From Bradyrhizobium guangzhouense (GTDB taxonomy: Bacteria > Pseudomonadota > Alphaproteobacteria > Rhizobiales > Xanthobacteraceae): 64,000 bases of DNA. This document shows, piece by piece, positions 3,996-26,184 of this stretch. Position 1 is the stretch's first letter, and each line of letters opens with the position of its first letter. A program made the position numbers and the translations under genes. The notes below the pieces were generated by a model. That model made no database searches, was not told the origin of the DNA, and worked only from the letters and a program-made list of their open reading frames with translations. The stretch is taken from the NCBI RefSeq assembly GCF_004114955.1, contig NZ_CP030053.1, forward strand, positions 2,108,001 to 2,172,000, read 5' to 3'.

Positions 3996-4009
3996 TTGAT
4001 CAAGATCAA
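3996..4009. promoter_or_regulatory. FNR/FixK-type box
   Basis: The sequence TTGATCAAGATCAA fits TTGA-N6-TCAA exactly. It lies between the divergent DUF1622 (3901) and DUF2254 (4071) genes. If the activator binds 41.5 bases upstream of the start, as in class II FNR promoters, transcription to the right would begin near 4044, a sensible leader length for the ATG at 4071. Confidence 0.8.
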
Positions 4010-4070
4010 CGAAACAGCGGCTCGTCGCGAAGATGCTGGTGTCCATCGATGATATCAAAAAGGCAGTGGC

Positions 4071-5363
4071 ATGCAGCTCTGGCTGATACCCACGCTCTAC
4101 GCCGCTGCAAGTGTCGCGGCGGGCTTTCTGGTGCCGCGCCTGGAATCCAAATTCCTGGCCGTCAGTCTCAATCTGTCGACGTCTTCGGCCCAGGCTTACC
4201 TGTCGGCAGTTGCCTCGGGCATGATGGCGCTGACCGGCATCGTGTTCTCGATCGCCTTCGTGCTCGTTCAGTTCAATGCCGTCGTCTATTCACCTCGGCT
4301 CGTCGTCTGGTTTGCGCGCGACCGTCTCTTGTTCCATTCCCTCGGCATGTTCGTCGCGACCTTCATGTATAGCCTTGCGACGCTGGCGTGGGTCGATCGT
4401 CCGGGTGCTCAAGGCGTACCTTTTCTGTCTGCGGCGATCGTTGCGGCCATGCTGGTCGCCAGCGTCTTGATGCTTGCGCAGCTCGTCCAGCGTTTGAACA
4501 ATCTTCAGATCATGCGGGTGCTGCAGGCGCTGGGGGATACGGGCCGGCAGGTCATCAGCAGCACCTATCAGTCCAGCCCGTGGCAGGCCCCGGGCAAAGC
4601 GGCGCGAGCGCAAGAGCAGTTGTGTTCGGCCAGGCTGACCGTCAAATATGTCGGCAATCCGCAGTCGGTGACATCGATCGATATCGACAGGTTGGTCGGC
4701 CATGCCCGGAGAATGAACGGGCTCATCATGATGGAATGCGGCGTCGGCGACACGCTGCTCGAAGATAGTGTGATCTTGCACGCTCAATGTGCGACGACCT
4801 TCGTACCCGAGGAGGAGTTGAGCGCATGCGTACATCTCGACGAGCAGCGAACGTTCGAGCAGGATCCGAAATATGCAATTCGGCTGCTCGTCGACGTCGC
4901 GATCAAGGCGCTGTCTCCAGCCATCAACGATCCAACGACCGCCGTCCAGGCCATCGACCAGATCGAGGACCTGCTGCGGCGGCTGGCCAAATGCGACCTG
5001 GAAGCGTGCCGCGCCTTCGACGAGGACGGCGTTCTGAGGGTGGTTCATCGTATGCCGACCTGGGAGGATTATCTTGGGTTGGCTTTCGATGAAATCCGGC
5101 AGTTCGGGTCGACGTCCATCCAGGTGATGCGCCGGCTCCGCGCCGCGCTCGCCGGCCTCGCCGAGTGCGTCGGCGAGGGGCGCGCGGAACTCGTTCACGC
5201 CTACCTCAATCATCTCGATTATGGAATCGAGCGCTCGAGCTTCGATCCGCAGGACCGCGCCGCGGCTCGTATCGAGGACAGGCAGGGCCTTGGCTTGTCG
5301 CACCACGTGGAAGCAGGGGTGGCCAGTCCGGCCGCGGACGGGAAGGGGCGGCCGGTGTCGTGA
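4071..5363 (+). CDS. DUF2254 family membrane protein
   Basis: This is a 430-residue inner-membrane protein of the DUF2254 family, whose function is not established. The N-terminal half holds about four membrane segments (roughly residues 3-22, 45-70, 85-105 and 118-138). A soluble C-terminal half of about 290 residues follows, including the conserved stretch AIKALSPAINDPTTAVQAIDQI near residue 275. The FixK-like box centred 68 bases upstream suggests induction at low oxygen. The stop overlaps the GTG start of the next gene by four bases, so the two are probably made together. Confidence 0.85.
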   Translation: MQLWLIPTLYAAASVAAGFLVPRLESKFLAVSLNLSTSSAQAYLSAVASGMMALTGIVFSIAFVLVQFNAVVYSPRLVVWFARDRLLFHSLGMFVATFMYSLATLAWVDRPGAQGVPFLSAAIVAAMLVASVLMLAQLVQRLNNLQIMRVLQALGDTGRQVISSTYQSSPWQAPGKAARAQEQLCSARLTVKYVGNPQSVTSIDIDRLVGHARRMNGLIMMECGVGDTLLEDSVILHAQCATTFVPEEELSACVHLDEQRTFEQDPKYAIRLLVDVAIKALSPAINDPTTAVQAIDQIEDLLRRLAKCDLEACRAFDEDGVLRVVHRMPTWEDYLGLAFDEIRQFGSTSIQVMRRLRAALAGLAECVGEGRAELVHAYLNHLDYGIERSSFDPQDRAAARIEDRQGLGLSHHVEAGVASPAADGKGRPVS

Positions 5364-6025
5364 TCACGCAAGCGACTGGATTGACGCGAGCCAGGTTGCG
5401 GGCCCCACGCGTTGCGGCCGCGGCCGGTGTCCTGTTCTCAGTGCTGCTTCTCGCAGTATTCTGGTTGATGCGGCGATCCGTGCCGGCCGACCCGCTCGAG
5501 CCGGGCGCATGGCTGCATGGAGGCACCAGCAATGTCGCTTTGGCCTTGAACCTCGTGCCCTTCGCGGGTGTGGCCTTCCTGTGGTTTGTCGGCTTTTTGC
5601 GTGACCAGCTCGGCGCGCGCGAGGACCGGTTCTTTGCAACGATCTTTTTCGGCAGCGCTGTCCTGCTGCTCGCGATGCTGTTCGCCGCCGCCGCCGTCAT
5701 CGGCGCGGTCATTCTGGCCTTCCATGCCGCGCCGAACGTGCTGATCAACTCCGCGACCTTTCATTTCGGCCGCGGCCTTGCCTACGGAATGGTCAACATC
5801 TATCTCGTCAAGACCGCCTCCGTGTTCATGATCACGACGTCGACGATTGCCCTCTACACGGGGCTCACGCCGCGTTGGCTTGCCTATGGCGGTTACGCCG
5901 TTGCCGCCACCCTTCTCATCGGAAGCTACTTCATCGACTGGAGCCTCGTCGTCTTTCCGTTCTGGGTGCTTCTCGTCAGCATCAACATCTGGCTCAAGAA
6001 AGACGAGCCCGAGGCGCGACCGTAA
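5360..6025 (+). CDS. Unknown membrane protein with five predicted membrane segments
   Basis: I do not recognise this 221-residue protein. I start it at the GTG at 5360, which overlaps the DUF2254 stop (GTGA). A longer frame from 5165 would lie entirely within the DUF2254 gene. Predicted membrane segments fall at about residues 13-33, 55-75, 85-120, 140-160 and 170-210, and the protein ends in a charged tail (LKKDEPEARP). Coupling to a DUF2254 gene behind a FixK-like box suggests a membrane role at low oxygen. Nothing in the sequence points to a substrate or cofactor. Confidence 0.75.
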   Translation: MITQATGLTRARLRAPRVAAAAGVLFSVLLLAVFWLMRRSVPADPLEPGAWLHGGTSNVALALNLVPFAGVAFLWFVGFLRDQLGAREDRFFATIFFGSAVLLLAMLFAAAAVIGAVILAFHAAPNVLINSATFHFGRGLAYGMVNIYLVKTASVFMITTSTIALYTGLTPRWLAYGGYAVAATLLIGSYFIDWSLVVFPFWVLLVSINIWLKKDEPEARP

Positions 6026-6102
6026 AGACGCCAAGCCGGCCTGTATGGGGAGTTGATCCGGCCTGTCATCCGTTCTGGTCCGACCGGCGATCCATCCGAT
6101 CG

Positions 6103-6116
6103 TTGACCTAAGTCAA
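6103..6116. promoter_or_regulatory. FNR/FixK-type box upstream of the DUF3141-pta-ackA-fabI operon
   Basis: TTGACCTAAGTCAA matches TTGA-N6-TCAA. The expected class II start is near 6151, with the -10 hexamer TATGAA at 6141-6146 in the right place. This puts the ATG at 6142 inside the promoter and favours the start at 6172 for the downstream gene. Confidence 0.85.
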
Positions 6117-6171
6117 CGTATCCAGCCGTCTGGGGCTCTCTATGAAAGGGGCGGGCAAGAGAGGTCGGAAC

Positions 6172-8391
6172 ATGGCGATGGAAATATCAAATCTCCCCGG
6201 TGGCCCCATGTCCGGGCTGGTTGCTTCGGCCGTCGAATATATGGTCGACGCAGGGCAGCGCAGTGTGCTGTTCCTTGACATCATGCGTCGGCGCGGCGAC
6301 CAATATCGTGAGCATGTGGCGCAAACGGCGCCACACGTCCTGCAGTATGCCGCCGAATTGATCATTGACGGCCGCCAGCTCGACGACCCCGTCAACTACG
6401 CGCTGGTGCGCATCATTCCGCCGAAGGGCGTCGAGATAAACCTCGAGCGACGGCCGTTCATCGTGGTCGATCCGCGCGCCGGGCACGGCCCGGGCATTGG
6501 CGGGTTCAAAGCCGACAGCGAGATCGGTGTTGCGATGAAAGCGGGCCATCCCTGCTATTTCATCGGCTTTCTGCCGGAGCCGATGCCGGGACAGACGATC
6601 GAGCGCATCGCGCGGGCTGAGGCTCTTTTCATCGAGAAAGTCATCAGCCTGCATCCAAAAGCCGACGGCAAGCCCTGCGTCATCGGCAATTGCCAGGCCG
6701 GCTGGGCCGTCATGATTCTGGCCTCGTTGCGGCCGGAACTGTTCGGGCCGATCATCATTGCCGGCGCGCCGCTGGCCTATTGGGCCGGCGTGCATGGCAA
6801 ATATCCGATGCGCTATTCGGGCGGGCTGCTGGGCGGAAGCTGGCTGACGGCGCTCGCCAGCGATCTCGGCGCAGGCAAGTTCGACGGCGCCTGGCTGGTG
6901 CAGAATTTCGAGAACCAGAATCCGTCGAACACGCTGTGGACCAAGCAGTACAATGTCTATTCGAAGGTCGACACCGAGGCGGACCGTTACCTCGAATTCG
7001 AACGCTGGTGGGGCGGACACGTCAATCTGAACGCAGAAGAGATCCAGTTCATCGTCGACGAGCTGTTCATCGGCAACAATCTGGCCGCCGGCAACATCGA
7101 GATGTCCGACGGCAGCAAGGTCGACCTGCGCAACATCCGATCGCCCATTGTCGTGTTTTGTTCCGAGGGGGACAACGTCACCCCGCCTCAGCAAGCGCTC
7201 GACTGGATCCTCGATTGTTACGCCGATGTCGATGAGATCAGAGCCTACGGACAGACGATCGTCTATACGGTCCACGAGAGTGTCGGCCATCTCGGCATCT
7301 TCGTCTCGGGAGGTGTCGCAAAGAAGGAACACGCCGAGTTTTCGAGCAACATCGATCTGATCGACGTGCTGCCGCCCGGCCTCTATGAAGCCACCTTCGA
7401 GGCCAAGGGCGAAGAGACCGCAAGCTCGGACCTGGTCGTCGGCCAATGGGTCATGCGTTGTGAAGCGCGAACCCTCGACGATATCAGGGCCATGGGAGGC
7501 AACTCGCCCGAGGACGAACGGCGTTTCGCCGCCGCAAAGCGCGCATCCGAGATCAATCTCGCGGCCTACCGGAAGTTCGTCCAGCCGTGGATCAAGAGCG
7601 TCGTGACCCCGCGATTGGCGGAGACGATGCGCACTTTCCACCCGTTGCGGCTGCAATATGAGGCATTCAGCAGCAAGAATCCGCTCATGGCGACGGTCAA
7701 GTCGGCAGCGGAGGAGATCGAGGACAATCGCAAGCCGGTGTCGAAGGATAATCCTTTCCTGGCATTGCAGGAACGGATGTCGAAGCAGATCGTCCGCGCG
7801 CTCGATAGCTGGCGCGACGCGGCGGAAGCGCTGAGCGAAACGATTTTCCTCAACGTCTATGGCTCGCCGGCCGTGCAGGCGGCCCTTGGCGTCGATCCCA
7901 AGTCGGAGCCCTCGCGCCGCCGCGAGATGTCCGCCGAGCACCAGGCGATGCTGGCGGCGCGGATTGCCGAATTGAAATCCAGGATCGGTGAAGGCGGTCC
8001 GCGGGAGGCCGCCATTCGCAGCCTGCTCTACATTGGCTCGGCGCGCGGCATGGTCGACGAACGCAGCATCGAGGCCTTGCGCCGGGTGCGGCGGGATTAC
8101 GGCGGGGCGCGCATGCCGCTCCCCGAGTTCAAGACGCTGGTTCGAGAGCAGTTCTTCATGCTGCTGCTGGATCAGGAGGGTGCGCTCGCAGCCATTCCGC
8201 GGCTGTTGCCAGACGACATCAATCAGCGCCGGACTTTGATTGCAGCCATGCGGGAGGTGCTGTCCGCCAGTGGAGAGATCACGGGAGAGCGCGCAAGCCG
8301 CCTCCAACGGGTGGCCACGCTGCTTGGCGTCGGCACGGAGGAGGGAAGCGTGACCAACGTTGCCCCTTTCGACCAGGCGAAAGCATCGTAG
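6172..8391 (+). CDS. DUF3141 alpha/beta-hydrolase, PHA synthase-like
   Basis: This 739-residue protein belongs to the DUF3141 family, often annotated as polyhydroxyalkanoate synthetase-like. Its first half has an alpha/beta-hydrolase fold. The nucleophile elbow reads GNCQAGW with cysteine at residue 174, like the Cys lipase box of PHA synthases rather than a serine hydrolase. The expected Asp and His come later (CSEGDNVTPP; HESVGHLG). The helical C-terminal half is of unknown role. I use the ATG at 6172, preceded by AGAGGTCGG, because the upstream ATG at 6142 falls in the predicted -10 element. It leads an operon with phosphotransacetylase, acetate kinase and FabI, so an acyl-CoA or hydroxyacyl substrate is likely. 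Polymer synthesis, hydrolysis or acyl transfer cannot be told apart. Confidence 0.85.
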   Translation: MAMEISNLPGGPMSGLVASAVEYMVDAGQRSVLFLDIMRRRGDQYREHVAQTAPHVLQYAAELIIDGRQLDDPVNYALVRIIPPKGVEINLERRPFIVVDPRAGHGPGIGGFKADSEIGVAMKAGHPCYFIGFLPEPMPGQTIERIARAEALFIEKVISLHPKADGKPCVIGNCQAGWAVMILASLRPELFGPIIIAGAPLAYWAGVHGKYPMRYSGGLLGGSWLTALASDLGAGKFDGAWLVQNFENQNPSNTLWTKQYNVYSKVDTEADRYLEFERWWGGHVNLNAEEIQFIVDELFIGNNLAAGNIEMSDGSKVDLRNIRSPIVVFCSEGDNVTPPQQALDWILDCYADVDEIRAYGQTIVYTVHESVGHLGIFVSGGVAKKEHAEFSSNIDLIDVLPPGLYEATFEAKGEETASSDLVVGQWVMRCEARTLDDIRAMGGNSPEDERRFAAAKRASEINLAAYRKFVQPWIKSVVTPRLAETMRTFHPLRLQYEAFSSKNPLMATVKSAAEEIEDNRKPVSKDNPFLALQERMSKQIVRALDSWRDAAEALSETIFLNVYGSPAVQAALGVDPKSEPSRRREMSAEHQAMLAARIAELKSRIGEGGPREAAIRSLLYIGSARGMVDERSIEALRRVRRDYGGARMPLPEFKTLVREQFFMLLLDQEGALAAIPRLLPDDINQRRTLIAAMREVLSASGEITGERASRLQRVATLLGVGTEEGSVTNVAPFDQAKAS

Positions 8392-8420
8392 CGGCCGTCC
8401 AGACCATCGGGAGCAACACC

Positions 8421-9383
8421 ATGTCGACCGATACCGGGCAATCACAATCCCCGAGCAAGTATGACCGGCTGATCACGGCGGCCAAGGCCGCCACTCCGGT
8501 TTGGACCGTCGTCGTGCATCCCTGCGACGAGACGTCGTTGCGGGGGGCCGTCGACAGCGCGCAGGCCGGCATCATCCGGCCTATTCTGGTCGGGCCCGAA
8601 GGAAAGGTCAGAGATACCGCCAGAAAGTTCGGTCTCGACATCGCCGGCTTCGAGATCGTCGACGCCGCGCACAGTGAGGACGCCGCCGCCAAAGGGGTCG
8701 AGCTGATCCACGCTGCGCGAGGCGAGATGCTGATGAAGGGCAGCCTTCACACCGACGAGCTGATGCGCTCGGTGACGGCGAAGGTAGGAGGGCTGCGCAC
8801 GGACCGCCGTATCAGTCACGTGTTTGTCATGGACGTACCGGCCTATTCCGAGACCCTGTTCGTGACGGATGCTGCGATCAACATCTTTCCCGACCTCGAT
8901 GCCAAGCGGGATATCATCCAGAACGCGATCGATCTCTACACCCAAGCCGGCTTCGGCAAGGCGCCTCGCGTTGCCATCCTGTCGGCGGTCGAGACCGTCA
9001 CCTCCAAGATTCCATCGACGATCGAGGCCGCCGCACTCTGCAAGATGGCCGATCGCGGCCAGATCACCGGCGGCGTACTCGACGGGCCGCTGGCTTTCGA
9101 CAATGCGATCGACCCCGAGGCGGCACGCATCAAGGGCATCAGGTCCGAGGTCGCCGGTCGGGCGCAGGTCCTGGTCGTTCCCGATCTCGAGGCCGGCAAC
9201 ATGCTGGCGAAGAATCTTGCCTACTTCGCCAAGGCCGATGGAGCCGGCATCGTGCTCGGTGCGCGCGTGCCCGTCGTCCTGACGTCTCGGGCCGATACGC
9301 CGCGCGCCCGGATGGCATCCTGCGCGATCGCGTCGCTCTACGCCAATGCGCGCCGACAGCAAGCCCCCACAATCGCAGCGTGA
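8421..9383 (+). CDS. pta: Phosphotransacetylase/phosphotransbutyrylase family enzyme
   Basis: This 320-residue cytoplasmic enzyme of the PTA_PTB family converts acyl-CoA plus phosphate into acyl phosphate plus CoA. It is a short form without the N-terminal DRTGG regulatory domain of long Pta and without the MaoC domain fused to some homologues. Family-like blocks are the opening around [11 protein letters not shown] (residues 54-64) and the late [33 protein letters not shown] stretch, split here as [10 protein letters not shown] and [13 protein letters not shown], which carry the CoA/phosphate site of the family. It lies between DUF3141 and acetate kinase with gaps of 29 and 4 bases, so the pair Pta-AckA can make ATP from acetyl-CoA or butyryl-CoA. 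The acyl preference cannot be read from sequence. Confidence 0.88.
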
Positions 9384-9387
9384 TGCC

Positions 9388-10602
9388 ATGGACAGCATTC
9401 TCGTCGTGAACGCCGGCTCCTCGAGCGTCAAGTTCCAGATCTTCTCGGTCGAAGGCGAAGGCAGGCTGCGGCGGCAAATCAAGGGACAGTTGGACGGCAT
9501 CGGCAGCCGTCCGCGGTTGAAGGCCGGCGGGGCGGCGGGCGATCCCCTGGCCGACCGGGCTTATCCGATCGAGGCGGTGCCGGACGTTACGACCGCAATG
9601 GGGGTCGCCGGCGAGTGGCTGCGCGAGGAGCTCCGCATTCACCCGATCGCTGTCGGGCACCGGGTGGTCCATGGCGGCCCGGACTATGACAAGCCGGTCT
9701 TGATTGACCACGGCGTGGTGGCCTCGCTGGAGCGCTTCATCAATCTCGCACCGTTACATCAGCCGCACAATCTGTCGCCGATCCGGTCGATCCTCGCGAA
9801 TTATCCGACCCTGCCGCAGGTCGCCTGCTTCGACACCGCATTTCATCGCACGCACGGTGTGTTGGCCGATCACTACGCTATACCGCATCCGCTTCATGCG
9901 GAGGGCGTGCGGCGCTATGGCTTTCACGGCCTGTCGTACGAATACATCGCGAGGACTTTGGCCGGCGTGGCCCCCGAAATCGCAAAGCGTCGGGTGATCG
10001 TCGCGCATCTCGGCAGCGGCGCCTCGATGTGCGCCATGAAGGACGGGCGGAGTGTCGAGAGCACCATGGGATTCACCGCGCTGGATGGTCTTCCCATGGG
10101 AACGCGGCCTGGACAGCTCGATCCCGGCGTCGTGCTCTACCTCATCTCCGAGAAGGGCATGCCGGCTGCGAAAGTGCAGGATTTTCTTTATCGCGAATGC
10201 GGCCTGAAGGGCCTTTCCGGTGTCAGCAACGACATGCGCGCATTGGAGCAAAGCGACGATCCCAAGGCCAGGCTTGCGATCGACTATTTCGCCTATCGGA
10301 TCGGCCTTAACGCCGGCATGCTGGCCGCGGCCTTGCAGGGCCTGGACGCCTTCGTCTTCACGGCCGGTATCGGGGAGAATTCTGCAACCATTCGCGCCCG
10401 CGTGGTCGAGCAGCTCGGCTGGCTCGGTGCCACACTCGACCCCATCCAAAACTCCCGCCACGCGCGCCTGATCTCGCAACCCGGCAGCCTCATTCCGGTC
10501 TATGTGGTCCCGACCGATGAAGAGCTGATGATTGCGCAGCATACGCTGTCGTTGCTGATGAACGCGCCATCGACCAACCCCAAGCAAGAGAGGGTGTCAT
10601 GA
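9388..10602 (+). CDS. ackA: Acetate/propionate family kinase
   Basis: This 404-residue kinase interconverts acyl phosphate plus ADP and carboxylate plus ATP. The ATG at 9388, four bases after the pta stop, gives the classic N-terminus [14 protein letters not shown]. The frame is open further upstream but overlaps pta. Other acetate kinase signatures are visible: [10 protein letters not shown] (near 90), CFDTAFH (near 148), [22 protein letters not shown] and [12 protein letters not shown] close to the end with the catalytic Glu. It overlaps fabI by four bases (ATGA). Under oxygen limitation, Pta plus this kinase would give ATP and excrete acetate. The length suits AckA, BukA being shorter. Confidence 0.92.
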
Positions 10603-11387
10603 TTCCCGTATATCCGGATACCAAAGTGGCCCTCAAGGGCAAGAAGGGGCTCGTCGTCGGTATCGCCAATGATCAATCGATCGCTTGGGGCTGCGCCAGG
10701 GCGTTCCGTGCGCTCGGGGCCGACCTCGCGGTCACCTATCTGAATGACCGCGCGAAGAAGCATGTCGAGCCACTCGCCCAGGCGCTCGAGGCGCCGATCT
10801 TCATGCCGCTCGATGTCATGGCCGAGGGCCAGACCGAGCAGGTTTTCGAACGAATCGCGAAGGAGTGGGGGCAGCTCGACTTCCTGCTGCACTCGATCGC
10901 TTTCTCGCCCAAGGAAGCGCTACACGGCCGTGTCGTCGACGTCGGCCGTGAGGGCTTTCTGAAGACCATGGACGTGTCGTGCTGGTCGTTCCTGCGGATG
11001 GCGCATCTGGCCGAGCCGCTGATGAAGAACGGCGGCACCATGTTCACCATGACCTACTATGGCAGTCAGATGGTGGTCGAGAACTACAATATCATGGGCG
11101 TCGCGAAGGCGGCGCTGGAATCGGCGGTTCGTTATGCGGCGGCCGAGCTGGGCCCGAAGGGCATCCGTGTGCACGCGATCTCACCGGGACCGCTGGCGAC
11201 GCGCGCCGCTTCGGGCATCCCCGAGTTCGACGAACTGATGGACAAGGCGCAGTCGAAGGCTCCGTCGCGCAGCCTGGTGAGCATCGATGACGTCGGCAAT
11301 GCAACGGCATTTCTGGCGCTCGACGGCGCCAAGCTGATCACCGGCGGCGTGCTCTATATCGACGGCGGCTATCACATCATCGACTGA
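10599..11387 (+). CDS. fabI: Enoyl-ACP reductase (NADH), FabI
   Basis: This 262-residue short-chain dehydrogenase family enzyme reduces trans-2-enoyl-ACP with NAD(P)H in fatty acid elongation. The divergent nucleotide motif of FabI is present ([17 protein letters not shown], residues 12-28). The catalytic Tyr-x6-Lys pair sits in NYNIMGVAK, with the [13 protein letters not shown] substrate loop after it. The start overlaps the ackA stop (ATGA). Placement in a fermentative operon is unusual for a housekeeping enzyme, so this is probably a second FabI copy. It may adjust membrane lipids or use enoyl groups as an electron sink at low oxygen; that role is inference. Confidence 0.92.
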
Positions 11388-11888: not shown

Positions 11889-12539
11889 TCAGAGTTTCAT
11901 TTCCGGGACATTGTCGGGCACAAAGAGCTCGGCCTCCGTGACCGCCATGACCTCGCCGACGCTGACGCCGGGCGCGGTTTCGAGCAGCGTGGCCCTTCCT
12001 GCCGGGAATCCGATCACCGCCATGTCCGTGACGACAAGGTTTACCGGCCGCGCCGAGGTCAAAGGCAGGGTGCATTTGGCGACGATCTTGGACTTGCCCT
12101 TGGCGGCGTGCTGCATGGCGACGATGACGCGCCTGGCGCCACTGACGAGGTCCATCGCGCCGCCCATGCCTGGCACCATCTTGCCGGGGATCATCCAGTT
12201 GGCGAGCAAGCCGTGTGCGTCGACCTGGAGACCGCCGAGCACGGTGATGTCGACATGACCACCGCGGATCAGCCCGAACGACATCGCGCTGTCGAAGGTC
12301 GCCGCACCCGGCAGTGCGCTGATCGGCCGGCCGCCGGCGTCGGTGAGCAGGGGATGGGCCATGCCTTGCTCCGGAATCGGGCCAGTGCCGATCAGGCCGT
12401 TCTCTGACTGGAAGAACACCTTGAGGTCGGCCGGAACGTAGTTGGCAACCAGGGTCGGAATGCCGATGCCGAGATTGACCAGGTTGCCGCTCTGGAGCTC
12501 TTTGGCGACGCGGCGGGCGATGATGATCTGCGGGTCCAT
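11889..12539 (-). CDS. 3-oxoacid CoA-transferase subunit B
   Basis: This 216-residue beta subunit of a family I CoA-transferase (ScoB/AtoA type) would move CoA between succinyl-CoA or acetyl-CoA and a 3-oxo or short-chain acid. It has the active-site glutamate motif SENGLIGTGP (residues 44-53), LVNLGIGIPT near residue 20, and GMGGAMDLVSGARRVIV in the middle. The ATG at 12539 (MDPQIIIARR) is chosen over a longer frame because it sits four bases after the subunit A stop. Together with subunit A it would activate acetoacetate or acetate, or make acetate while regenerating succinyl-CoA. Confidence 0.9.
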   Translation of the reverse strand: MDPQIIIARRVAKELQSGNLVNLGIGIPTLVANYVPADLKVFFQSENGLIGTGPIPEQGMAHPLLTDAGGRPISALPGAATFDSAMSFGLIRGGHVDITVLGGLQVDAHGLLANWMIPGKMVPGMGGAMDLVSGARRVIVAMQHAAKGKSKIVAKCTLPLTSARPVNLVVTDMAVIGFPAGRATLLETAPGVSVGEVMAVTEAELFVPDNVPEMKL

Positions 12540-12543
12540 GATC

Positions 12544-13191
12544 TCACCCGTTCGCAATGAGGTAATCGACAAGCGGCGCCGGCGTCATGACATGGTCGGG
12601 GGCGATCACGCCGACCGGTACGATATGCTCGGCCGTGACGATGACCGTATCGGCCGCCATCGCCATGATGGGATTGAAATTGCGCGCGGTGAGCGCATAG
12701 GTGAGATTGCCGAGGTAATCGGCGAGAAAAGCATGGACCAGCGCGAATTGCGCGCGGATCGCCGTCTCCAGCAGGAACGGCTTGCCGTCGACCTCGATCT
12801 GCCGCTTGCCCTCGGCAACGAGCGTGCCGACCCCGGTCGGCGTCAGCACGCCGCCAAGGCCGCAACCGCCGGCCCGGATGCGTTCGACGAAGGTCCCCTG
12901 CGGCACCAGGTCGACATTGATCTGGTTGGCCAGCATCTGCCGCTGCGCCGTGGGATTGAGACCGATATGCGTCGCCGTCAGTTTTGCGACCAGCGTCGCA
13001 TCGAACAGTTTGCCGACGCCCTTGCCGACGAAGGCGGCATCGTTGGAGATCACGGTCAGGCCCGCCTTCTGTTGCCGCACCATTTCGTCGAGCACGCGCT
13101 CCGGCGTGCCCACGCCCATGAAGCCGCCGACCATGACGCTGGCGCCTGCGGGAATCATCGCAACGGCTTCTTCGACGGAAACGGCCTTCAT
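12544..13191 (-). CDS. 3-oxoacid CoA-transferase subunit A
   Basis: This 215-residue alpha subunit (ScoA/AtoD type) pairs with the next gene. It shows the glycine-rich signature MVGGFMGVGTPERV near residue 22 and the GCGLGGVLTPTGVGT block in the middle. The ATG at 13191 gives the usual AtoD-like N-terminus (MKAVSVEEAV); an in-frame ATG at 13212 would add seven residues. The FixK-like box at 13257-13270 predicts a transcript start near 13222, compatible with either. The operon is this gene, subunit B and the MaoC hydratase. Confidence 0.9.
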   Translation of the reverse strand: MKAVSVEEAVAMIPAGASVMVGGFMGVGTPERVLDEMVRQQKAGLTVISNDAAFVGKGVGKLFDATLVAKLTATHIGLNPTAQRQMLANQINVDLVPQGTFVERIRAGGCGLGGVLTPTGVGTLVAEGKRQIEVDGKPFLLETAIRAQFALVHAFLADYLGNLTYALTARNFNPIMAMAADTVIVTAEHIVPVGVIAPDHVMTPAPLVDYLIANG

Positions 13192-13256
13192 GATTGAAAC
13201 TCCGATCGGCACGACCAGGCAGCGGACCGATGTTGGCGACGCCCCCCTTGCGATCC

Positions 13257-13270
13257 TTGATCTGCGTCAA
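13257..13270. promoter_or_regulatory. FNR/FixK-type box upstream of the CoA-transferase operon
   Basis: TTGATCTGCGTCAA matches TTGA-N6-TCAA and lies in the short gap between subunit A and the unknown gene ending at 13281. Class II spacing leftwards predicts a start near 13222. The leftward transcript would cover subunit A, subunit B and the MaoC gene. Confidence 0.8.
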
Positions 13271-14875: not shown

Positions 14876-14933
14876 AGCTCGTCCGGCCGCCTTGCCTAGC
14901 GTCGCGTCAAAATGCGTCAGGGAGGACTTCGTG

Positions 14934-17441: not shown

Positions 17442-17450
17442 GATGGTTCG

Positions 17451-18314
17451 ATGCCGCGGGTGCAGGCAGGTGAGGTCCAGCTCGGCTGGCGGGAGTGGGG
17501 ACAGGGCGATGTCACGGTCGTGTTCATCCACGGCAATCTCGCCAGCAAGGATTGGATCGAGCTTGCCGCGCCCATGTTTCCCACCGGGCTGCGCGTGATC
17601 GCGATTGATTGGCGTGGGTGCGGCGACAGCGACCGGCCGAAGCCGACTGCGGACTACTCCAACTACTCGATGCAGCAGCATGCGCAGGATCTGCTGGCGG
17701 CTCTCGATGCGCTTGATATTCTCTTCTGCCACCTCGCCACCCACTCCACGGGCGGAATCATCGCGGCACGGATGCTGCTGATGCAGCCCGAACGGTTCGG
17801 GCGGGTGTTCGCGCTCGATCCGGTCACGCCGCTCGGCCTGGCCTTCAATGCCGACCAGATCGGCGTCTTCCGCGCGATGATGGCAAGCAAGGACGTGACG
17901 CGAGCGGTGATGGCGACTGCTGCGTCTTCCTTGTTCGTTCCTGACAGCCTTGCGCCGACGTCCATGCCGAGGTTTCGGGAGGGGCTTGGCGACGTCCAAG
18001 CCTTGTTTGAGCGAATTCTCGAACAAACCTTCGGCGTGTCCGAGGGAATATGGCTCGGCACCCCCTTCAATCTCAACCGCGAGTGGGAGAGCAAGCAGCT
18101 CGGGCTTCGGATGGCCGAAATCCGGCATCCGCACCTGGTGCTATGGGGCGAGCGGGATGGGTGGATCCCGCCGGCGGATCTGAGAGCAATGGCGGTGGCG
18201 ATGCCTGACTGCCGCTTGGTGATCGTGCCCGGTGTCGGCCATTCGATGAATCTTGAAGTCCCGGCGCTCTATGCTGGCTATTTCGGCGCCTGGTTCGGAG
18301 GCCTTTCGCGATAA
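17451..18314 (+). CDS. Alpha/beta hydrolase
   Basis: This 287-residue cytoplasmic hydrolase begins nine bases after the exported double hydrolase. The fold signatures are clear: HGNLASKDW for the oxyanion hole, DWRGCGDSDRP, the nucleophile elbow THSTGG with Ser99, the acid region in LDPVTPLG or GERDGWIPP, and the histidine in GVGHSMNLE. It fits the haloalkane dehalogenase/epoxide hydrolase-like superfamily by layout, but the nucleophile is Ser, so esterase or lactonase activity is more likely. It is followed by a phasin gene, and an intracellular hydroxyalkanoate ester is a plausible substrate. Confidence 0.86.
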   Translation: MPRVQAGEVQLGWREWGQGDVTVVFIHGNLASKDWIELAAPMFPTGLRVIAIDWRGCGDSDRPKPTADYSNYSMQQHAQDLLAALDALDILFCHLATHSTGGIIAARMLLMQPERFGRVFALDPVTPLGLAFNADQIGVFRAMMASKDVTRAVMATAASSLFVPDSLAPTSMPRFREGLGDVQALFERILEQTFGVSEGIWLGTPFNLNREWESKQLGLRMAEIRHPHLVLWGERDGWIPPADLRAMAVAMPDCRLVIVPGVGHSMNLEVPALYAGYFGAWFGGLSR

Positions 18315-18342
18315 CCCGTTTTCCACCCAAGGGAGCCATGCC

Positions 18343-18693
18343 ATGGCAAATATCAATCCTTCCGCCGACAACGTCCGGGCGATGCTGACAGAATCGCTCG
18401 GCCGCGTTCGACAGGCCAGCACCGAGTATTTCGACCTTCTCGAAAAAAATCTCGGCGCCTCGCCGCTGCCGATCGCCGATCAAGCCAAGCAGTTTTGCAA
18501 CTATCTGCAGCGCAACGTTGTGGCGACTTTCGACCTCGGCGACAAGCTCATCCAGGCCAAGGACGTTCAGGATGCGCTCAAGGTACAGTCGGAATTTTTC
18601 CAGGCCCAGATGCGGGCGCTGACGGACCAGGCCAAGGACATGGGCGAGTCGGCGATGAAGGCTGCAAGCGGCATGTTTCAACCGAAGAGCTGA
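18343..18693 (+). CDS. Phasin family protein
   Basis: This is a 116-residue helical protein of the phasin family, which coats polyhydroxyalkanoate granules and controls their number and size. The ATG at 18343 follows AAGGGAG. The features are typical: no Cys, an amphipathic heptad pattern from about residue 10 to 105, and the stretch VQDALKVQSEFFQAQMRALTDQ (first part VQDALKVQSEFFQ). It sits 28 bases after a hydrolase gene in the FixK-box cluster. Storage granules would serve as a reductant and carbon sink at low oxygen. No PHA synthase of the PhaC type is in the window. Confidence 0.85.
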   Translation: MANINPSADNVRAMLTESLGRVRQASTEYFDLLEKNLGASPLPIADQAKQFCNYLQRNVVATFDLGDKLIQAKDVQDALKVQSEFFQAQMRALTDQAKDMGESAMKAASGMFQPKS

Positions 18694-19204: not shown

Positions 19205-19927
19205 CTAGCCGGCCGCTTTCAAGTCCTCCGGCGATTCCAAATAATAGCCGGAGTAAGAGTCGACGAGGCCGAGGTGGTCATGGACTTCCTTGACGCCGCT
19301 GGTGTTTTCGGCAGCGATCATCGACGCTCGCCGGGCCTCGTCGGTCGTGATGAGACCGTGCAGATGGACGATGCCGTTGCGGACATCCGCTCTGAAACCG
19401 ATCGGGCGCCAGTCGGCTTTATTGATCGCCCGCGTGATGCGGTCGCAGATGTGCTCGTCATCGGCGGTTGGGTCCGGGATTTCGTGTGCGAGGCTGGCCA
19501 TGGCTTGCAGCAAGTTGCTCCTCGTCACGATTCCGATCGTTGCCTTGCCCCGCATCACCGGGATGCGTTTGATGTCGTGCTTTTCCATCAGATCAACGAG
19601 GTCGGCCAGGGAGGTTTCCTCCTGCGCGGAGACGACCTGCCGCGTCATGACATCCTCCACCTTTCGGCCACTTTCGTGAACGAACTCGGCCGCGGCCCGC
19701 CCGGGTCCCATGAAGAATTTCAACCAAGCGGCGTGCCTACGACCGGTGCCAATCTCGCTGCGGCGAAGGAAGTCGCTTTCCGAGACAATGCCGACAAGGT
19801 TGCCGGCGTCATCGATGACGGGCAGGCCGCTGATGTGCATCTGCAGCATGATCTTGGCGGCTTCTTCGATCGTCGTATGAGGCGTCACCGCGACAACGTC
19901 TCTGGTCATCACATGGATGGCGTGCAT
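19205..19927 (-). CDS. CBS domain pair plus BON domain protein
   Basis: This 240-residue cytoplasmic protein has two CBS motifs (about residues 7-62, opening with TRDVVAVTPHTTIEEAAKIM, and 92-148 with TRQVVSAQEETSLADL) and then a BON domain (about 155-225, containing WRPIGFRADVRNGIVHLHG). CBS pairs bind adenine nucleotides and sense energy charge; BON domains bind membranes or lipids. It lies 67 bases downstream of hsp20 on the same strand, so both probably come from the FixK-box promoter at 20587. CBS proteins of this type recur in hypoxia loci, but the partner it regulates is not known. Confidence 0.9.
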   Translation of the reverse strand: MHAIHVMTRDVVAVTPHTTIEEAAKIMLQMHISGLPVIDDAGNLVGIVSESDFLRRSEIGTGRRHAAWLKFFMGPGRAAAEFVHESGRKVEDVMTRQVVSAQEETSLADLVDLMEKHDIKRIPVMRGKATIGIVTRSNLLQAMASLAHEIPDPTADDEHICDRITRAINKADWRPIGFRADVRNGIVHLHGLITTDEARRASMIAAENTSGVKEVHDHLGLVDSYSGYYLESPEDLKAAG

Positions 19928-19994: not shown

Positions 19995-20516
19995 TCAGGC
20001 CGCCTTCACGTTGATGGTCTTGGCGGGCTTCTGGGCGTCCTCGGTTTTCGGAAGCACGACCTTGAGCACGCCGTTCTTGAAGGTCGCCTCGATCTTGTCG
20101 GCGTTGACGCCCTCCGGCAGGGTGAAATAGCGCTCGAACGCGCCATAGCGTCGCTCGGAGACATAATAGTCCTTCTTCTTTTCCTCCGTCTCCTCGCGCT
20201 TCTCGCCCTTGATCGTAAGACCGCCATTGACGAGCTTGATATCGATGTTCTTCTCGTCGAGCCCCGGGAGCTCCGCCGTGATTTCATACGCCTTGTCGCC
20301 TTCGGCGACGTCGACGGCGGGCGCAGCAATCGACTTCGAGATGTCGCGCTCCAGCCGTGCGAGCGAACGGAACGGTCGGTTCCAGAAGCCGTTGCCGAAA
20401 TCGTCGAAGATCTGATCGATCTCGTTTCTCAAGGCCTGGAATGGGCGCCAGGTCTCGGCCGCGACGGCAGGCGCGGTAGAGGTTTTCGTAACGGGCAATT
20501 TGGTTTCGGTCGCCAT
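19995..20516 (-). CDS. Hsp20/alpha-crystallin small heat shock protein
   Basis: This 173-residue ATP-independent chaperone holds unfolding proteins. The N-terminal arm is hydrophobic (WRPFQALRNEIDQIFDDFG). The alpha-crystallin domain runs from about 65 to 165, with AELPGLDEKNIDIKL, GEKREETEEKKKDYY, FTLPEGVNADKIEATFKNGVL and a final LPKTEDAQKPAKTI. The start at 20516 has AAGGAG nine bases upstream. A FixK-like box at 20587-20600 predicts a transcript start near 20552 with a TATTCT -10 element, which rules out the longer frame from 20600. Regulation is therefore likely by oxygen; I did not see a CIRCE or ROSE element. Confidence 0.93.
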   Translation of the reverse strand: MATETKLPVTKTSTAPAVAAETWRPFQALRNEIDQIFDDFGNGFWNRPFRSLARLERDISKSIAAPAVDVAEGDKAYEITAELPGLDEKNIDIKLVNGGLTIKGEKREETEEKKKDYYVSERRYGAFERYFTLPEGVNADKIEATFKNGVLKVVLPKTEDAQKPAKTINVKAA

Positions 20517-20586
20517 GATCATTTCTCCTTCGAGGTTTGACCATCTCGGTCGCCGAAAAGAATAGTCGCTCGTGCAGGTTGGAAAG

Positions 20587-20600
20587 TTGATTTCGCTCAA
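20587..20600. promoter_or_regulatory. FNR/FixK-type box upstream of hsp20
   Basis: TTGATTTCGCTCAA matches TTGA-N6-TCAA. For leftward transcription the predicted start is near 20552, and TATTCT on the minus strand at 20564-20559 lies exactly at -10. This is one of the best-formed promoters in the window. Confidence 0.85.
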
Positions 20601-20683: not shown

Positions 20684-22309
<1,626 letters not shown>

Positions 22310-22379: not shown

Positions 22380-22393
22380 TTGATCCTGGTCAA
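22380..22393. promoter_or_regulatory. FNR/FixK-type box, groEL side
   Basis: TTGATCCTGGTCAA matches TTGA-N6-TCAA. Class II spacing to the left predicts a start near 22345 for the groEL transcript, with a TACAAA-like -10 around 22354-22359. Confidence 0.82.
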
Positions 22394-22405
22394 CCCGAGG
22401 CGAGG

Positions 22406-22419
22406 TTGACCTGAATCAA
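22406..22419. promoter_or_regulatory. FNR/FixK-type box, ftsH side
   Basis: TTGACCTGAATCAA matches TTGA-N6-TCAA. To the right it predicts a start near 22454, with TAGCAT at 22441-22446 as -10, giving a short leader before the TTG at 22478. The two boxes are 26 bases apart centre to centre and give each divergent gene its own site. Confidence 0.82.
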
Positions 22420-22477: not shown

Positions 22478-24319
22478 TTGGATTCCAATCAGATCTCGCG
22501 AAAGCAGACGATAGCGATGGCCATCATCTTCGCGGGAAGCATGCTGCTCGTCGTCCTGCAATTCATTGCTACGACTTACAACTCAATCGAATCCATCCCC
22601 TACAGTCAGTTCGAGCAGTTGCTCGCCCAGGATAAGATCGTCGAAGTTTCGGTTGGCTCTGATACGATCCAGGGAAAACTGAAAGAGCCGCTTCCCGGTG
22701 GGAAATCGGCATTCGTGACGTCGCGGGTTGATATGGCCCTGGCCGAGCGGTTGGCGGCAAAGGGCGTCGTCGTAACTGGCGTTCCGGGAAGCGGTCTGCT
22801 TCAAGGTCTGCTGTCCTGGATATTCCCGGTCGCCGTCTTCCTCGTGATCTGGTATTGGGCCGGTCGCAGCATGAGCGGCCGCCAGGGGTTCGGCGGGTTG
22901 ATGGCGATCGGGAAGTCCCGTGCCAAAGTCTATGTCGAGAAGGACATCAAGATCACATTCGCCGACGTCGCCGGCGTGGACGAGGCCAAATTCGAGCTTC
23001 AGGAAGTCGTTTCGTTTCTGAGGGATCCCGCCAGTTACGGCCGATTGGGAGCGCACGTGCCCAAGGGGATATTGCTGGTCGGACCGCCGGGAACGGGAAA
23101 GACCCTGCTGGCGCGCGCCGTGGCCGGAGAGGCCGGTGTTCCCTTCTTCTCGATTTCGGGCTCTGAATTCGTCGAGATGTTCGTCGGGGTGGGCGCGGCC
23201 CGCGTCCGAGACCTCTTTGAGCAGGCCCGTAAGGCAGCTCCCTGCATTATTTTCGTAGACGAACTCGATGCGCTCGGACGCAGTCGCGGGCCGGTGTCTT
23301 TCGCGAGCCATGACGAGAAGGAGCAGACCCTCAATCAGCTGCTGTCGGAGCTCGACGGCTTCGACCCGAGCGCGGGCGTCATTCTGCTCGCGGCCACCAA
23401 CCGCCCGGAAATTCTGGATCCTGCGCTGCTGCGAGCGGGAAGGTTCGACCGACAAGTCCTCGTCGACCGGCCGGACAAGATCGGGCGCACGGCCATTCTC
23501 AAGGTGCATGTCCGCAAGATTCGCATGGGGGCGGGGGTCGATCTCGACAAGGTCGCCGGCCTTACGACCGGCTTCACAGGCGCTGATATCGCCAATCTCA
23601 TCAACGAGGCTGCCATCGCCGCAACCCGCCGTGGCGGAGAGGAAGTCTCGTTCGCTGATTTCGTCACTGCGATTGAGCGGATCGTTGCCGGGGTGGAGAA
23701 GAAGAGCAGGGTCCTCGGCAAGGATGAGCGGCGCAGGGTGGCCTATCACGAAATGGGGCATGCCCTGGTGGCCGCAAGTCTGCCCGGCGTCGATCCGGTG
23801 CAGAAGGTTTCGATCATACCGCGCGGGATCGGCGCGCTCGGGTACACCATCCAGCGCCCGACCGAAGACAGGTTCTTGCTGACGATCGAGGAGCTGAAGA
23901 ATCGCATTGCCGTGCTGATGGGCGGACGGGCATCGGAGCGCTTGATTTTTGACGGCGCGATCTCGACGGGAGCCGCCGACGATCTTCAGCGCGCGACGGA
24001 AGTCGCCGTCGAGATGGTCACCAAATACGGCATGGACGAGGTGGTCGGCCAGCGCACCTATGCGCCCAAGCCTCAAGCATTCCTCGCGGCCCAGGATGCG
24101 GTCGTCACCGCCGCGGAAGCCACCGGCCGCGAGATTGACCTCGCGGTCCGGAACCTGATCGAGGAGGGTGACCGCCGTGCCCGGGATATTCTGCAAAGGC
24201 GGCGTGCCGACCTTGACGCCGGTGTTGAGCTACTGATTGCAAATGAAACGGTGACCGCAGAGCAGTTTTCTCCGCTGCTCGCCAAGAGTGCGGAAAAGAA
24301 CCATCAGGTCGCCGCATAA
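22478..24319 (+). CDS. ftsH: FtsH-type ATP-dependent zinc metalloprotease
   Basis: This 613-residue inner-membrane AAA protease degrades unassembled or damaged membrane and regulatory proteins. There are two N-terminal membrane segments (about 11-31 and 105-127) flanking a periplasmic domain. Walker A is GPPGTGKT (202-209), Walker B is the later [11 protein letters not shown], the second region of homology is [20 protein letters not shown] (ending at the Arg finger), and the zinc site is HEMGH (424-428). The start is a TTG with CGGGAGG upstream; no better in-frame ATG is near. The D in IFVDELDA replaces the usual IDEIDA form only conservatively. This is likely a second FtsH, induced with the divergent chaperonin at low oxygen. 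Confidence 0.92.
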
Positions 24320-25093: not shown

Positions 25094-25104
25094 TCGATCC
25101 AGAT

Positions 25105-25118
25105 TTGATCCTGATCAA
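25105..25118. promoter_or_regulatory. FNR/FixK-type box upstream of a short transcript
   Basis: TTGATCCTGATCAA matches TTGA-N6-TCAA and is an almost perfect palindrome. Class II spacing predicts a start at about 25153, and TAGATT at 25141-25146 fits the -10 position. Confidence 0.82.
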
Positions 25119-25152
25119 GCGGGGGCAATGCAAGCTGGCTTAGATTATTATT

Positions 25153-25236
25153 TGCGTAGCTAACCCACGGCTATGTCCCCCCAAGTTGCCGCCGAGGCGT
25201 CCCCCCAAGAGTCTCGGCGGCTTTTTCTTTTCTTTT
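25153..25236 (+). ncRNA. Candidate FixK-dependent small RNA or attenuated leader
   Basis: The predicted transcript starts about 41 bases after the FixK-like box and ends at a strong terminator 84 bases later, before the ATG at 25271. It carries the C-rich motif GTCCCCCCAAG twice, once in an unpaired stretch (about 25175-25185) and once in the terminator loop (about 25200-25210). C-rich unpaired loops that can pair with ribosome-binding sites are common in alphaproteobacterial small RNAs. No open frame fits in it. It could instead be a leader with an attenuator for the DUF6894 gene. Confidence 0.5.
25188..25236 (+). terminator. Rho-independent terminator
   Basis: The stem GCCGCCGAG (25188-25196) pairs perfectly with CTCGGCGGC (25213-25221) around a 16-base C-rich loop. 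It is followed directly by a T-rich run (25222-25236). It precedes the start at 25271 by only 35 bases. Confidence 0.85.
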
Positions 25237-25270
25237 TGGTTGATCGAACCGGGACCAGGATAGCCCGCGA

Positions 25271-25489
25271 ATGCGCACCTATTATTTCGACATGAAGGAC
25301 GGCGTTCCCACGCGGGACAAGGCAGGCGTGGAATTGGCGAGCGACGGCGCTGCGATTGCGCACAGCAAGCAGCTGGCAGACAAGGTGCGCTTGGAGAAAC
25401 CCGCGGGCCATCAGGATCTACGGATCGTCGTCATCGACGAAAGCGGTCGCGAAGTTCACCGCGAGCAGGTTTATCAACGCAAGATTTGA
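25271..25489 (+). CDS. DUF6894 family protein
   Basis: This 72-residue protein matches the DUF6894 pattern common in rhizobia: RTYYFDMKDGVPTRDKAGVELAS at the start, a helical middle, then LRIVVIDESGREVHREQVY. Such proteins are small, cytoplasmic and of unknown function, often in many copies per genome. It lies just after the terminator at 25236, so it either needs read-through from the FixK-like promoter at 25105 or a promoter in the 35-base gap. Confidence 0.85.
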   Translation: MRTYYFDMKDGVPTRDKAGVELASDGAAIAHSKQLADKVRLEKPAGHQDLRIVVIDESGREVHREQVYQRKI

Positions 25490-25639
25490 TCACCGTCTGG
25501 GCCTGGCCGCCGGTTGCCTTGCCGATGACCCGCTCCGTTATATCTTCCGGACAGCTCGACCACCGCGACGGTGGGCAGTACGCGCCTCTCGCTTGCAGTC
25601 TGCCCTGGACGTCGAATGGATGTGCGGCGCAGCGGTGAC

Positions 25640-26116
25640 TTAACGCTGTCCCGGGACCGAAAATATCTGATTTCCGGGCGGGCGTTGGTCGGTCGGTATG
25701 CCAATGGTGATGAAGCCCCGCTCCATCGAGGTGTGGCAAGCGTTGCAGCCGTCGGTCAGGCTGCGCATGGAAGCGGCAAACTTTTTGCTGTCGCCCGCCG
25801 TTATGGCGTCCGCGATAGACAGCAGCGGATCTTTCATCGTGGTGACGTTGCTGACCGGAATGCCAGGGTAGAAAATTGCGGCTTGGGCCAGGCTGTCGGT
25901 CAATTGTCGTAGCTCGAAATTGGCGAGGTCCCAATTTTTGGCCTTGCCAGCGTACCAGAGTTTCAGGTGCTGAAGTTGTGCGGCAGTCATGGTTTCGACC
26001 AGACGAGGCGCATACTTTGCATTGGGAGACGGCGGAAAGTCCGGCTGTGCAACGGCAACAGACGTCGCCGCTGTTGCGGACACCGCCAGGATCGCGCACC
26101 AATTTCGTAGCTCCAT
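25640..26116 (-). CDS. Exported monohaem cytochrome c
   Basis: This 158-residue protein has a signal peptide (about residues 1-23, ending AVA-QP) and one haem c site, CNACH at 124-128, near the C-terminus. This placement and the helical body are like the cytochrome c'/c556 group, although the residues after the site (TSMERGF) are not decisive. It should be periplasmic and carry electrons or bind small ligands. A near-match FixK-like box at 26171 predicts a start near 26136. No oxidase or reductase partner adjoins it. Confidence 0.8.
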   Translation of the reverse strand: MELRNWCAILAVSATAATSVAVAQPDFPPSPNAKYAPRLVETMTAAQLQHLKLWYAGKAKNWDLANFELRQLTDSLAQAAIFYPGIPVSNVTTMKDPLLSIADAITAGDSKKFAASMRSLTDGCNACHTSMERGFITIGIPTDQRPPGNQIFSVPGQR

Positions 26117-26170
26117 TTGATCAATCCTCGTTTGACGGATGAAAGCCTATCAGAGGGCCAAAGAGGCCTG

Positions 26171-26184
26171 TTGCTCTGAATCAA
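26171..26184. promoter_or_regulatory. Near-match FNR/FixK box
   Basis: TTGCTCTGAATCAA differs from TTGA-N6-TCAA at one position. Leftward class II spacing gives a start near 26136, 20 bases before the cytochrome ATG. It is weaker than the other boxes but well placed. Confidence 0.5.

Follow-up and report, generated by a model that had tools for sequence, protein, structure and literature searches.

The FixK2 units of Bradyrhizobium diazoefficiens are the closest described system to the locus discussed here. In this species, units with a FixK2 box, e.g. groEL5, hspC2, blr4652-dnaJ, ppsA, phaC2, bsr6066 and others, fall in a fixK2 deletion, by 29-fold for groEL5, 112-fold for hspC2 and 95-fold for blr4652 (Table 2 of PMC9104804). 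The genes for DnaJ, PpsA, a glucokinase and a PfkB-type kinase are raised at 0.5% oxygen (Table 2 of PMC6515984). We have analysed a stretch of 64,000 nucleotides (nt) from the alphaproteobacterium Bradyrhizobium guangzhouense (contig NZ_CP030053.1, C1 below, positions C1:2108001-2172000; this whole stretch is 'the window', and positions without a prefix count from its first letter). It holds an island of FixK-type boxes, TTGA-N6-TCAA, that stand before genes for acyl-CoA metabolism, chaperones and proteases, and before a structured C-rich RNA. The type of island is already known, that of the FixK2-type regulon, with a content that varies from strain to strain; the new element is the RNA family.

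The B. diazoefficiens units bll4634-blr4659 and bll6060-blr6074 share both box and regulator with the island. In the published lists, groEL5 (blr4635) is likewise near hspC2 (blr4637), dnaJ and ppsA have boxes identical to those found here, and phaC2 and CBS genes recur. Unlike in B. diazoefficiens, a DUF3141-pta-ackA-fabI cassette, CoA-transferase genes, hydrolases, ftsH and the RNA share one hub; the USDA110 pta and ackA genes are blr3457 and blr3458, far off by the published locus numbers. Conversely, bll4644 (universal stress), bll4645 (host attachment) and blr4652 (nitroreductase) have no counterpart among 40 proteins that we scanned (E 0.001), a selection of the open reading frames (ORFs) in the window and in the DNA just upstream.

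The window was brought to attention by a first-pass annotation, which compared it with the low-oxygen lxa locus of Burkholderia (BCAM0275-BCAM0323 in B. cenocepacia). This likeness is loose. According to the lxa table of PMC6127331, heat shock, BON, Pta, zinc alcohol dehydrogenase and small cytochrome c proteins are found in both, as is a phosphofructokinase, which here lies outside the window. The host class of lxa is the Betaproteobacteria, unlike that of our strain. Neither its six universal stress proteins nor its phbB, nitroreductase and metallo-beta-lactamase-fold protein are among the 40 scanned proteins. The main text of PMC6127331 contains none of the terms 'acetate kinase', 'phasin', 'Hsp20' and 'FNR', and the lxa literature that we searched mentions neither FNR nor FixK-type sites. 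A Burkholderia plasmid with the DUF3141, pta, ackA and fabI genes lacks exact boxes throughout 40.9 kb.

The same four cassette genes, in the same order, occur on pSymA of Sinorhizobium meliloti, in a stretch that also holds cbb3 oxidase, CBS, AdhP and phosphoketolase genes. It differs in having no exact box in the cassette promoter, where a one-mismatch box can be seen by eye. Exact boxes lie near this cassette and outside its promoter (L151:13604, 13794, 22288 and 22495). For the RNA, the nearest parallel is FnrS of enteric bacteria, a small RNA (sRNA) under an oxygen-responsive activator of the CRP/FNR family, as described in the available text of PMC8139620. The likeness would be one of regulatory logic.

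Results

We scored TTGA-N6-TCAA as an exact box and the published FixK2 consensus, TTGA/C-N6-T/GCAA (PMC9104804, available part), as a relaxed one. All eight exact boxes of the first-pass annotation are present. They stand before a DUF2254 gene (3996-4009), before the DUF3141-pta-ackA-fabI operon (6103-6116), before the CoA-transferase genes (13257-13270), between divergent hydrolase genes (14862-14875), before hsp20 (20587-20600), twice between divergent groEL and ftsH genes (22380-22419; starts at 22380 and 22406, 26 bp apart) and before the RNA (25105-25118). The near match reported at 26171 is also there: it reads TTGCTCTGAATCAA and fits the published consensus. A ninth exact site, at 644, lies within coding sequence and was set aside as chance. 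The boxes had been described as intergenic. By a mechanical ORF set this is true of five of the eight; those at 20587, 22380 and 22406 lie within ORFs whose listed starts reach too far upstream, and turn intergenic once starts follow the conserved start codons of relatives. From 33 kb onwards, the window contains no exact box and two relaxed ones.

The boxes are not explained by composition. Nine exact sites in the window compare with a shuffle mean of 0.61, and none of 100 shuffles reaches nine. In the 8.14-Mb genome the exact pattern occurs 155 times and its reversal 33 times. The subclass TTGAR-N4-YTCAA is unenriched (15 vs 16 for its control), so we treat sites in which both TTGA halves are followed by a purine as background. 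When 155 sites were placed at random, at least eight fell in any 21.1 kb in just one of 5000 simulations, and 13 sites in 46.7 kb, a count that includes two sites judged to be chance (644 and C1:2093428), were reached in none of 5000. Across 80 loci from relatives (the best 80 of 246, mostly Bradyrhizobium, 1.705 Mb in total) TTGA-N6-TCAA occurs 382 times, against 0-20 times for each of 11 other palindromes of the same letters.

The boxes are conserved in relatives. In these loci we looked for an exact box within 250 nt 5′ of the orthologs of 14 genes. It is kept before DUF3141 in 78/80 loci, before CoA-transferase subunit A in 65/65, before the genes of a 308-aa and an 849-aa hydrolase in 40/46 and 37/44, before groEL in 14/19, before DUF2254 in 6/7 and before ftsH in 4/4. 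The reversed pattern was found before none of the 14 genes. For pta, the second gene of its operon, a box stands directly upstream in only 4/77 loci. The hsp20 gene scored 0/9 because its listed ORF start is too long; an alignment of seven sequences places the box before a conserved ATG.

The first-pass annotation had also noted −10-like hexamers at class II spacing behind several boxes. This is seen most widely as a preference for A or T. Among 253 promoter instances, with the shared box of the divergent hydrolase pair counted once per direction, A or T is found at +23 after the box in 89% and at +27 in 91%, compared with 56% and 60% at the matching positions on the opposite side. These are the places of bases two and six in a −10 element starting at +22, as in the class II layout. 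A strict hexamer is seen in some genes only. Most sequences for the 849-aa hydrolase (84%), hsp20 (67%) and ftsH (4/4) have TANNNT at +22; box 20587 itself has TATTCT at +23, and its relatives have TANNNT at +22 or +23. The six DUF2254 sequences do not match class II spacing.

Which regulator would act on these boxes? The single ccoN gene found in the genome, at C1:5.27 Mb, is near ORFs of 505, 205, 140 and 235 aa, which are arranged as fixL, fixJ, a receiver protein gene and fixK2 would be. FixL, FixJ and FixK2 match solved structures at 523, 390 and 468 bits. The 235-aa FixK2 is 94% identical to that of B. diazoefficiens, with 14 differences over 232 residues, one of which is the cysteine that was altered in the crystal. 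A box stands to either side of the fixLJ-fixK2 genes, where fixNOQP and fixGHIS would lie (neighbours named by place only, ccoN excepted), and another follows fixJ. A response regulator beside the CRP gene at C1:3714273 was considered as FixJ (141 bits) and rejected, the true fixLJ-fixK2 genes being those at C1:5.27 Mb.

Several boxes can be compared letter by letter with the published ones (PMC9104804, available part). The site at C1:2091774 is identical to the box of the blr4652-dnaJ unit, C1:2090271 to that of ppsA, C1:2320987 to that of phaC2 and C1:2330080 to that of bsr6066. The hsp20 box at 20587 shares 13 of 14 letters with that of hspC2.

Some of these sites lie beyond the 22 kb of the first-pass annotation, whose coordinates were too narrow. 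Because four further exact sites are found upstream (C1:2086391-2093441), we place the start of the island about 22 kb before the window. Beside these sites are genes for a family 1 glycosidase, glucokinase, a PfkB-type kinase, PEP synthase and a thiamine-pyrophosphate enzyme, as well as for a DnaJ protein with a small MerR-like partner. The site at C1:2093428 is inside an ORF and of the unenriched subclass, and was taken as chance.

Among the genome sites listed, a second hub, with eight exact boxes, lies at C1:2320923-2334423 (stretch L003, C1:2316001-2336000). Its genes include phaC, a CBS-BON protein, a CHAD protein, lipid-transport genes (a permease among them) and two CRP/FNR-type regulators. 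A weak universal-stress-like stretch (E 0.35) is also found there. A 904-aa protein with acyl-CoA-ligase and GNAT parts is encoded in the same hub. A third group of sites is at about C1:3.70-3.82 Mb (L143-L147, C1:3.695-3.800 Mb), of which ten genes were annotated; a FixK paralog, an Orn/Lys/Arg-type decarboxylase, a DUF3300 protein and efflux genes are nearby.

The content of the island varies between strains. In stretches of 40-60 kb from eight other Bradyrhizobium genomes, picked from DUF3141 matches, 5-20 boxes per stretch surround the same core (89 in total, against 2 for the reversed pattern). This core, consisting of DUF3141-pta-ackA-fabI, the CoA-transferase, a 198-aa protein and the hydrolases, is found in 8/8. 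The groEL-hsp20-CBS and sugar-kinase units are present in only some of the eight stretches. DUF3141 itself is present in 55 of 97 genomes.

The box at 25105 stands before an element of a different kind. A −10-like TTAGAT (25140-25145) follows 22 nt after it, and at 25154-25230 (+ strand) there is a predicted C-rich RNA of 77 nt with two hairpins, the second a terminator that ends in a T-rich tract. The motif GTCCCCCCAAG occurs twice, once where the first hairpin ends and once in the loop of the terminator. The predicted fold has −32.1 kcal/mol and z −5.35, and the RNAs of five relatives, folded singly, have z between −5.0 and −7.8. In eight homologs, trimmed by eye, 99.3% of the alignment cells pair, with 5 of 17 pairs changed on both sides.

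A covariance model was built on the RNA alone, leaving aside box and promoter. The RNA here, a training member, scores 83.1 bits. Matches at E ≤0.1 are found in 33 of 265 genomes of the genus. From 35 matches we took 30 loci, eight of which are training sequences; an exact box stands 46-49 nt 5′ of the RNA in 26/30, or in 18/22 once the training sequences are excluded. It is absent at four (L231, L232, L235 and L238), two of which, L235 and L238, possibly match the model by chance. Over the 30 rows 13 of 17 pairs show double-sided changes, which none of 500 shuffles equals, in an alignment that was fitted to the model and so favours structure. These rows contain an ATG in 6 cases, a GTG or TTG in 19 and a run of at least four Cs in 29. 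At the family level, 296 genomes give a match in 7, of which 3 are weak (29-36 bits) and outside the genus; on this sequence evidence we propose the family for Bradyrhizobium only.

No Rfam family matches the RNA at the gathering cut-off, nor anything else in the window. The most similar candidates are the 6C RNA (RF01066, 17.9 bits vs a cut-off of 47) and BjrC68 (RF02353, an sRNA of Bradyrhizobiaceae, 12.8 bits vs a cut-off of 39), and neither is listed for the relatives' RNAs that we searched in Rfam. The 6C RNA has two hairpins with runs of C, as does the RNA here. A plain promoter and terminator scan gave fewer sites than the shuffle mean and did not list the terminator of the RNA. As for its neighbours, ftsH is within about 1.5 kb upstream in 12/30 loci, and a DUF6894 match lies 27-78 nt downstream in 20/30. 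In the window the DUF6894 gene (25271-25489, + strand, PF21834) comes just after the terminator.

Discussion

We propose that the island is a physical hub of the Bradyrhizobium FixLJ-FixK2 low-oxygen regulon, with a probability of about 0.88. The idea of a FixK/FNR regulon island in an alphaproteobacterium is upheld by the conservation of the boxes, their class II-like spacing, the fixL-fixJ-fixK2 locus and the published FixK2 dependence of matching units. The boxes and their conservation, the spacing, the regulator genes and the RNA fold are computed directly. FixK2 probably controls these units in this strain, the metabolic roles given below are the likely ones, and the earlier label of a hypoxia survival module may prove apt.

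How might such a hub work? As oxygen falls, FixL would phosphorylate FixJ, which would raise fixK2. Dimers of FixK2 would bind the TTGA-N6-TCAA boxes, centred near −41.5, and assist RNA polymerase in initiating many short units together. The first job of their products would be to make ATP from acyl-CoA, alongside the storage-polymer proteins, i.e. the DUF3141 protein, which resembles polyhydroxyalkanoate (PHA) synthases, the phasin and the hydrolases. In particular, the phosphotransacylase, the acetate kinase and the acetate-type CoA-transferase would turn short acyl-CoA into ATP, and we infer that this core draws ATP from stored polyhydroxybutyrate or excess acyl-CoA at low oxygen. Another job would be protein quality control by the GroEL paralog, Hsp20, FtsH and the upstream DnaJ, and a third would belong to a cytochrome-like protein. 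One box would drive the C-rich structured RNA, which would end at its own terminator.

Several observations weigh against this proposal. Many island genes have no box of their own in relatives: ackA and fabI (0/77 loci each), the 198-aa gene (0/46), the 287-aa hydrolase gene (0/45), CBS-BON (0/9, and 0/7 in a second check) and hyp112 (0/5); pta, too, is among the island genes without their own box here. CBS-BON, hyp112 and the alcohol dehydrogenase cannot be placed inside any boxed operon. The DUF3141 cassette has no exact promoter box in loci L083 and L084, and on six other replicons neither DUF3141 nor the leading gene of its run has one within 250 nt upstream. The strict TANNNT is seldom present at +22 for DUF3141, CoA-transferase and groEL; at that place the consensus sequences of the three are TTGAAT, CAACAT and CAAACT. 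The AlphaFold2 model of the DUF3141 protein, made with 21 aligned relatives, has a mean predicted local distance difference score (pLDDT) of 53.1 and a predicted template modelling score (pTM) of 0.32. Two further points concern regulators. The genome encodes 19 proteins above the HTH_Crp_2 cut-off, which could share the box, and a phaR mutant of B. diazoefficiens has raised levels of the operon blr3456-blr3459, which is listed with PhaR motifs (PMC10888616, available part).

Could the main regulator be another of these 19? A cysteine-bearing FNR-like protein in the second hub has an N-terminal cysteine cluster and matches both FixK2 and FNR structures, and two FixK paralogs, at C1:3714273 and C1:3947940, score 289 and 219 bits against FixK2. 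The near identity of the true FixK2 to its B. diazoefficiens counterpart and the dependence of the matching units on FixK2 in that species (PMC9104804, Table 2) argue against this, and we regard it as unlikely. We find it equally improbable that carbon storage state, acting via PhaR, is the main control of the DUF3141-pta-ackA-fabI operon, with the box as a minor input. In its favour, blr3456 rises 7.2-fold in the phaR mutant of B. diazoefficiens, and pta (blr3457) and ackA (blr3458) rise as well; by position, blr3456 would be DUF3141 and blr3459 fabI. Against it, the same loss of phaR raises fixK2 3-fold together with 41 of 51 putative direct FixK2 targets, according to the available text of PMC10888616, and the box before DUF3141 is near-constant. 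A relationship by descent with the lxa locus is very doubtful. Some gene kinds are shared and the cassette does exist in Burkholderiales. Against homology, the scanned set contains no universal stress protein, the stretch of the Burkholderia plasmid has no exact box, and FNR goes unmentioned in the lxa literature searched. The comparison with lxa adds little to the interpretation of the island. Finally, a clustering of boxes by chance or composition is contradicted by the cross-species conservation, shuffles, genome counts, palindrome controls and spacing; nothing was found in its favour and we consider its probability negligible.

The RNA is more debatable. It is probably made as a transcript. 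Our tentative proposal, at slightly below even odds, is that box 25105 drives an undescribed family of C-rich sRNAs, activated by FixK2 at low oxygen, which would act in trans on G-rich ribosome-binding regions and so be a counterpart of FnrS by logic, not by descent. It is also possible, if somewhat doubtful, that the RNA is the leader of the DUF6894 gene, with a terminator that is opened by some signal. The place of the DUF6894 match is typical of an attenuator. On the other hand, a DUF6894 match is lacking from the retrieved stretch for 7 of the 26 RNAs with a box (L216, L219, L226, L229, L234, L236 and L237), and the single predicted folds show two hairpins only, with small extra pairs in 2/6, though no search was aimed at antiterminator pairing. 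The searched literature on FixK2 and small RNAs in Bradyrhizobium, including PMC4842269, PMC5082802, PMC7143759 and PMC9104804, describes no such RNA as far as these texts are available; this is no proof of absence, as most subscription papers (the 2008 FixK2 regulon paper among them) and supplementary tables lie outside it.

If the trans-acting sRNA is real, the FixLJ-FixK2 cascade would gain a post-transcriptional arm. The predicted RNA would be the first candidate sRNA under FixK2 known to us, and since its box, −10 element and terminator-ended fold are conserved together, the prediction is readily testable. More generally, the island is a case of FixK2 units in physical proximity: a nearly constant core for acyl-CoA to ATP and storage proteins is joined, strain by strain, by chaperone and sugar units, with boxes throughout.

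Genes of the region

The DUF2254 membrane protein (4071-5363, + strand; PF10011, E 1.6e-81) is followed by the cassette. The DUF3141 protein, a PHA-synthase-like alpha/beta hydrolase, is encoded at 6172-8391 (+ strand; PF11339, E 5.8e-292 for a longer ORF), with the start at 6172 set by the conserved start in relatives. It is 92% identical to a Bradyrhizobium protein. Cys174, Asp334, His373 and the nucleophile motif GNCQAG are invariant in 21 aligned sequences; Asp334 and His373 were picked as triad members by position. DUF3141 proteins have been grouped with PHA synthases that have a Cys-Asp-His triad (PMC11878206, available part). Next come pta (8421-9383, + strand; PRK11890, 515 bits, cut-off 413), the product of which scores 303 bits with the butyryl model TIGR02706 vs 70 with the acetyl model TIGR00651, an acetate/propionate kinase gene, ackA (9346-10602, + strand; PF00871; TIGR00016, 343 bits, cut-off 293), and the enoyl-ACP reductase gene fabI (10599-11387, + strand; PRK07533, 445 bits, cut-off 337).

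This cassette is widespread, and a conserved exact box before it has so far been seen in the Bradyrhizobium lineage. DUF3141, pta, ackA and fabI are found together on pSymA of S. meliloti, on a Pararhizobium plasmid and on Burkholderiales plasmids; in Azospirillum DUF3141-pta-ackA are together without fabI, and in Cupriavidus the CoA-transferase genes are within the same run as the cassette. Relaxed boxes occur 65 nt before the DUF3141 start in Eleftheria (L154:12552) and about 0.3 kb before pta in Cupriavidus (L155:14679). PhoB control is known from S. meliloti. A Pho-box before the cassette was sought in ten sequences, with a simple consensus, and rejected: the best sites match 9-10 of 14 positions and none at least 11, the only level for which background was counted.

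Two CoA-transferase subunits of the acetate/3-oxoacid type (11889-13212, − strand; PF01144; TIGR02428 and TIGR02429 over cut-off) lie beyond the cassette. They are followed by the 198-aa protein, which has no Pfam match, and the 308-aa alpha/beta hydrolase (13281-14800, − strand). On the other side of the shared box are the 849-aa two-part and the 287-aa alpha/beta hydrolases (14892-18314, + strand; PF00561), with MetX-like and PHA-depolymerase-like parts that score below cut-off. The 849-aa protein (14892-17441) has a hydrophobic start and two alpha/beta-hydrolase parts, the first MetX-like. A phasin-like protein is encoded at 18253-18693 (+ strand; PF09361, E 9e-12).

The protein quality control genes begin after a CBS-BON gene (19205-19927, − strand; PF00571, PF04972). 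Hsp20 (PF00011) has a listed ORF at 19995-20600 (− strand), with the conserved ATG inside it. The GroEL paralog (20684-22309, − strand; PRK12851, 892 bits, cut-off 464) belongs to a group of its own, with 86-98% identity in 20 of 98 genomes, other copies being about 57% identical. No groES is among the scanned genes that neighbour it. Its tail reads EQEMAMP and has no glycine-methionine repeat. The FtsH-family metalloprotease gene is at 22478-24319 (+ strand; TIGR01241, 728 bits, cut-off 600).

No exact or relaxed box stands directly upstream of the alcohol dehydrogenase gene in the window; a relaxed box does in one of two relatives checked. The cytochrome-like gene encodes a 158-aa cytochrome-c′-like protein (25640-26116, − strand), with a weak PF01322 match (E 0.011, below cut-off) and a CxxCH motif, CNACH in the translation. 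The relaxed box before it, at 26171-26184, reads TTGATTCAGAGCAA on the − strand. A TTGA-N6-GCAA box stands 67-68 nt before this gene in 8 of 10 loci, our own genome included; L213 and L221 are the two of the ten (hyp158) without a relaxed box.

Two further genes were seen in passing. A 1262-aa ORF at L002:6860-10648 combines an L-lysine epsilon-oxidase (LodA-like) domain with a haem-oxygenase-like domain, and a sigma-70-family protein with a SnoaL-like domain is encoded at 31494-32384 of the window.

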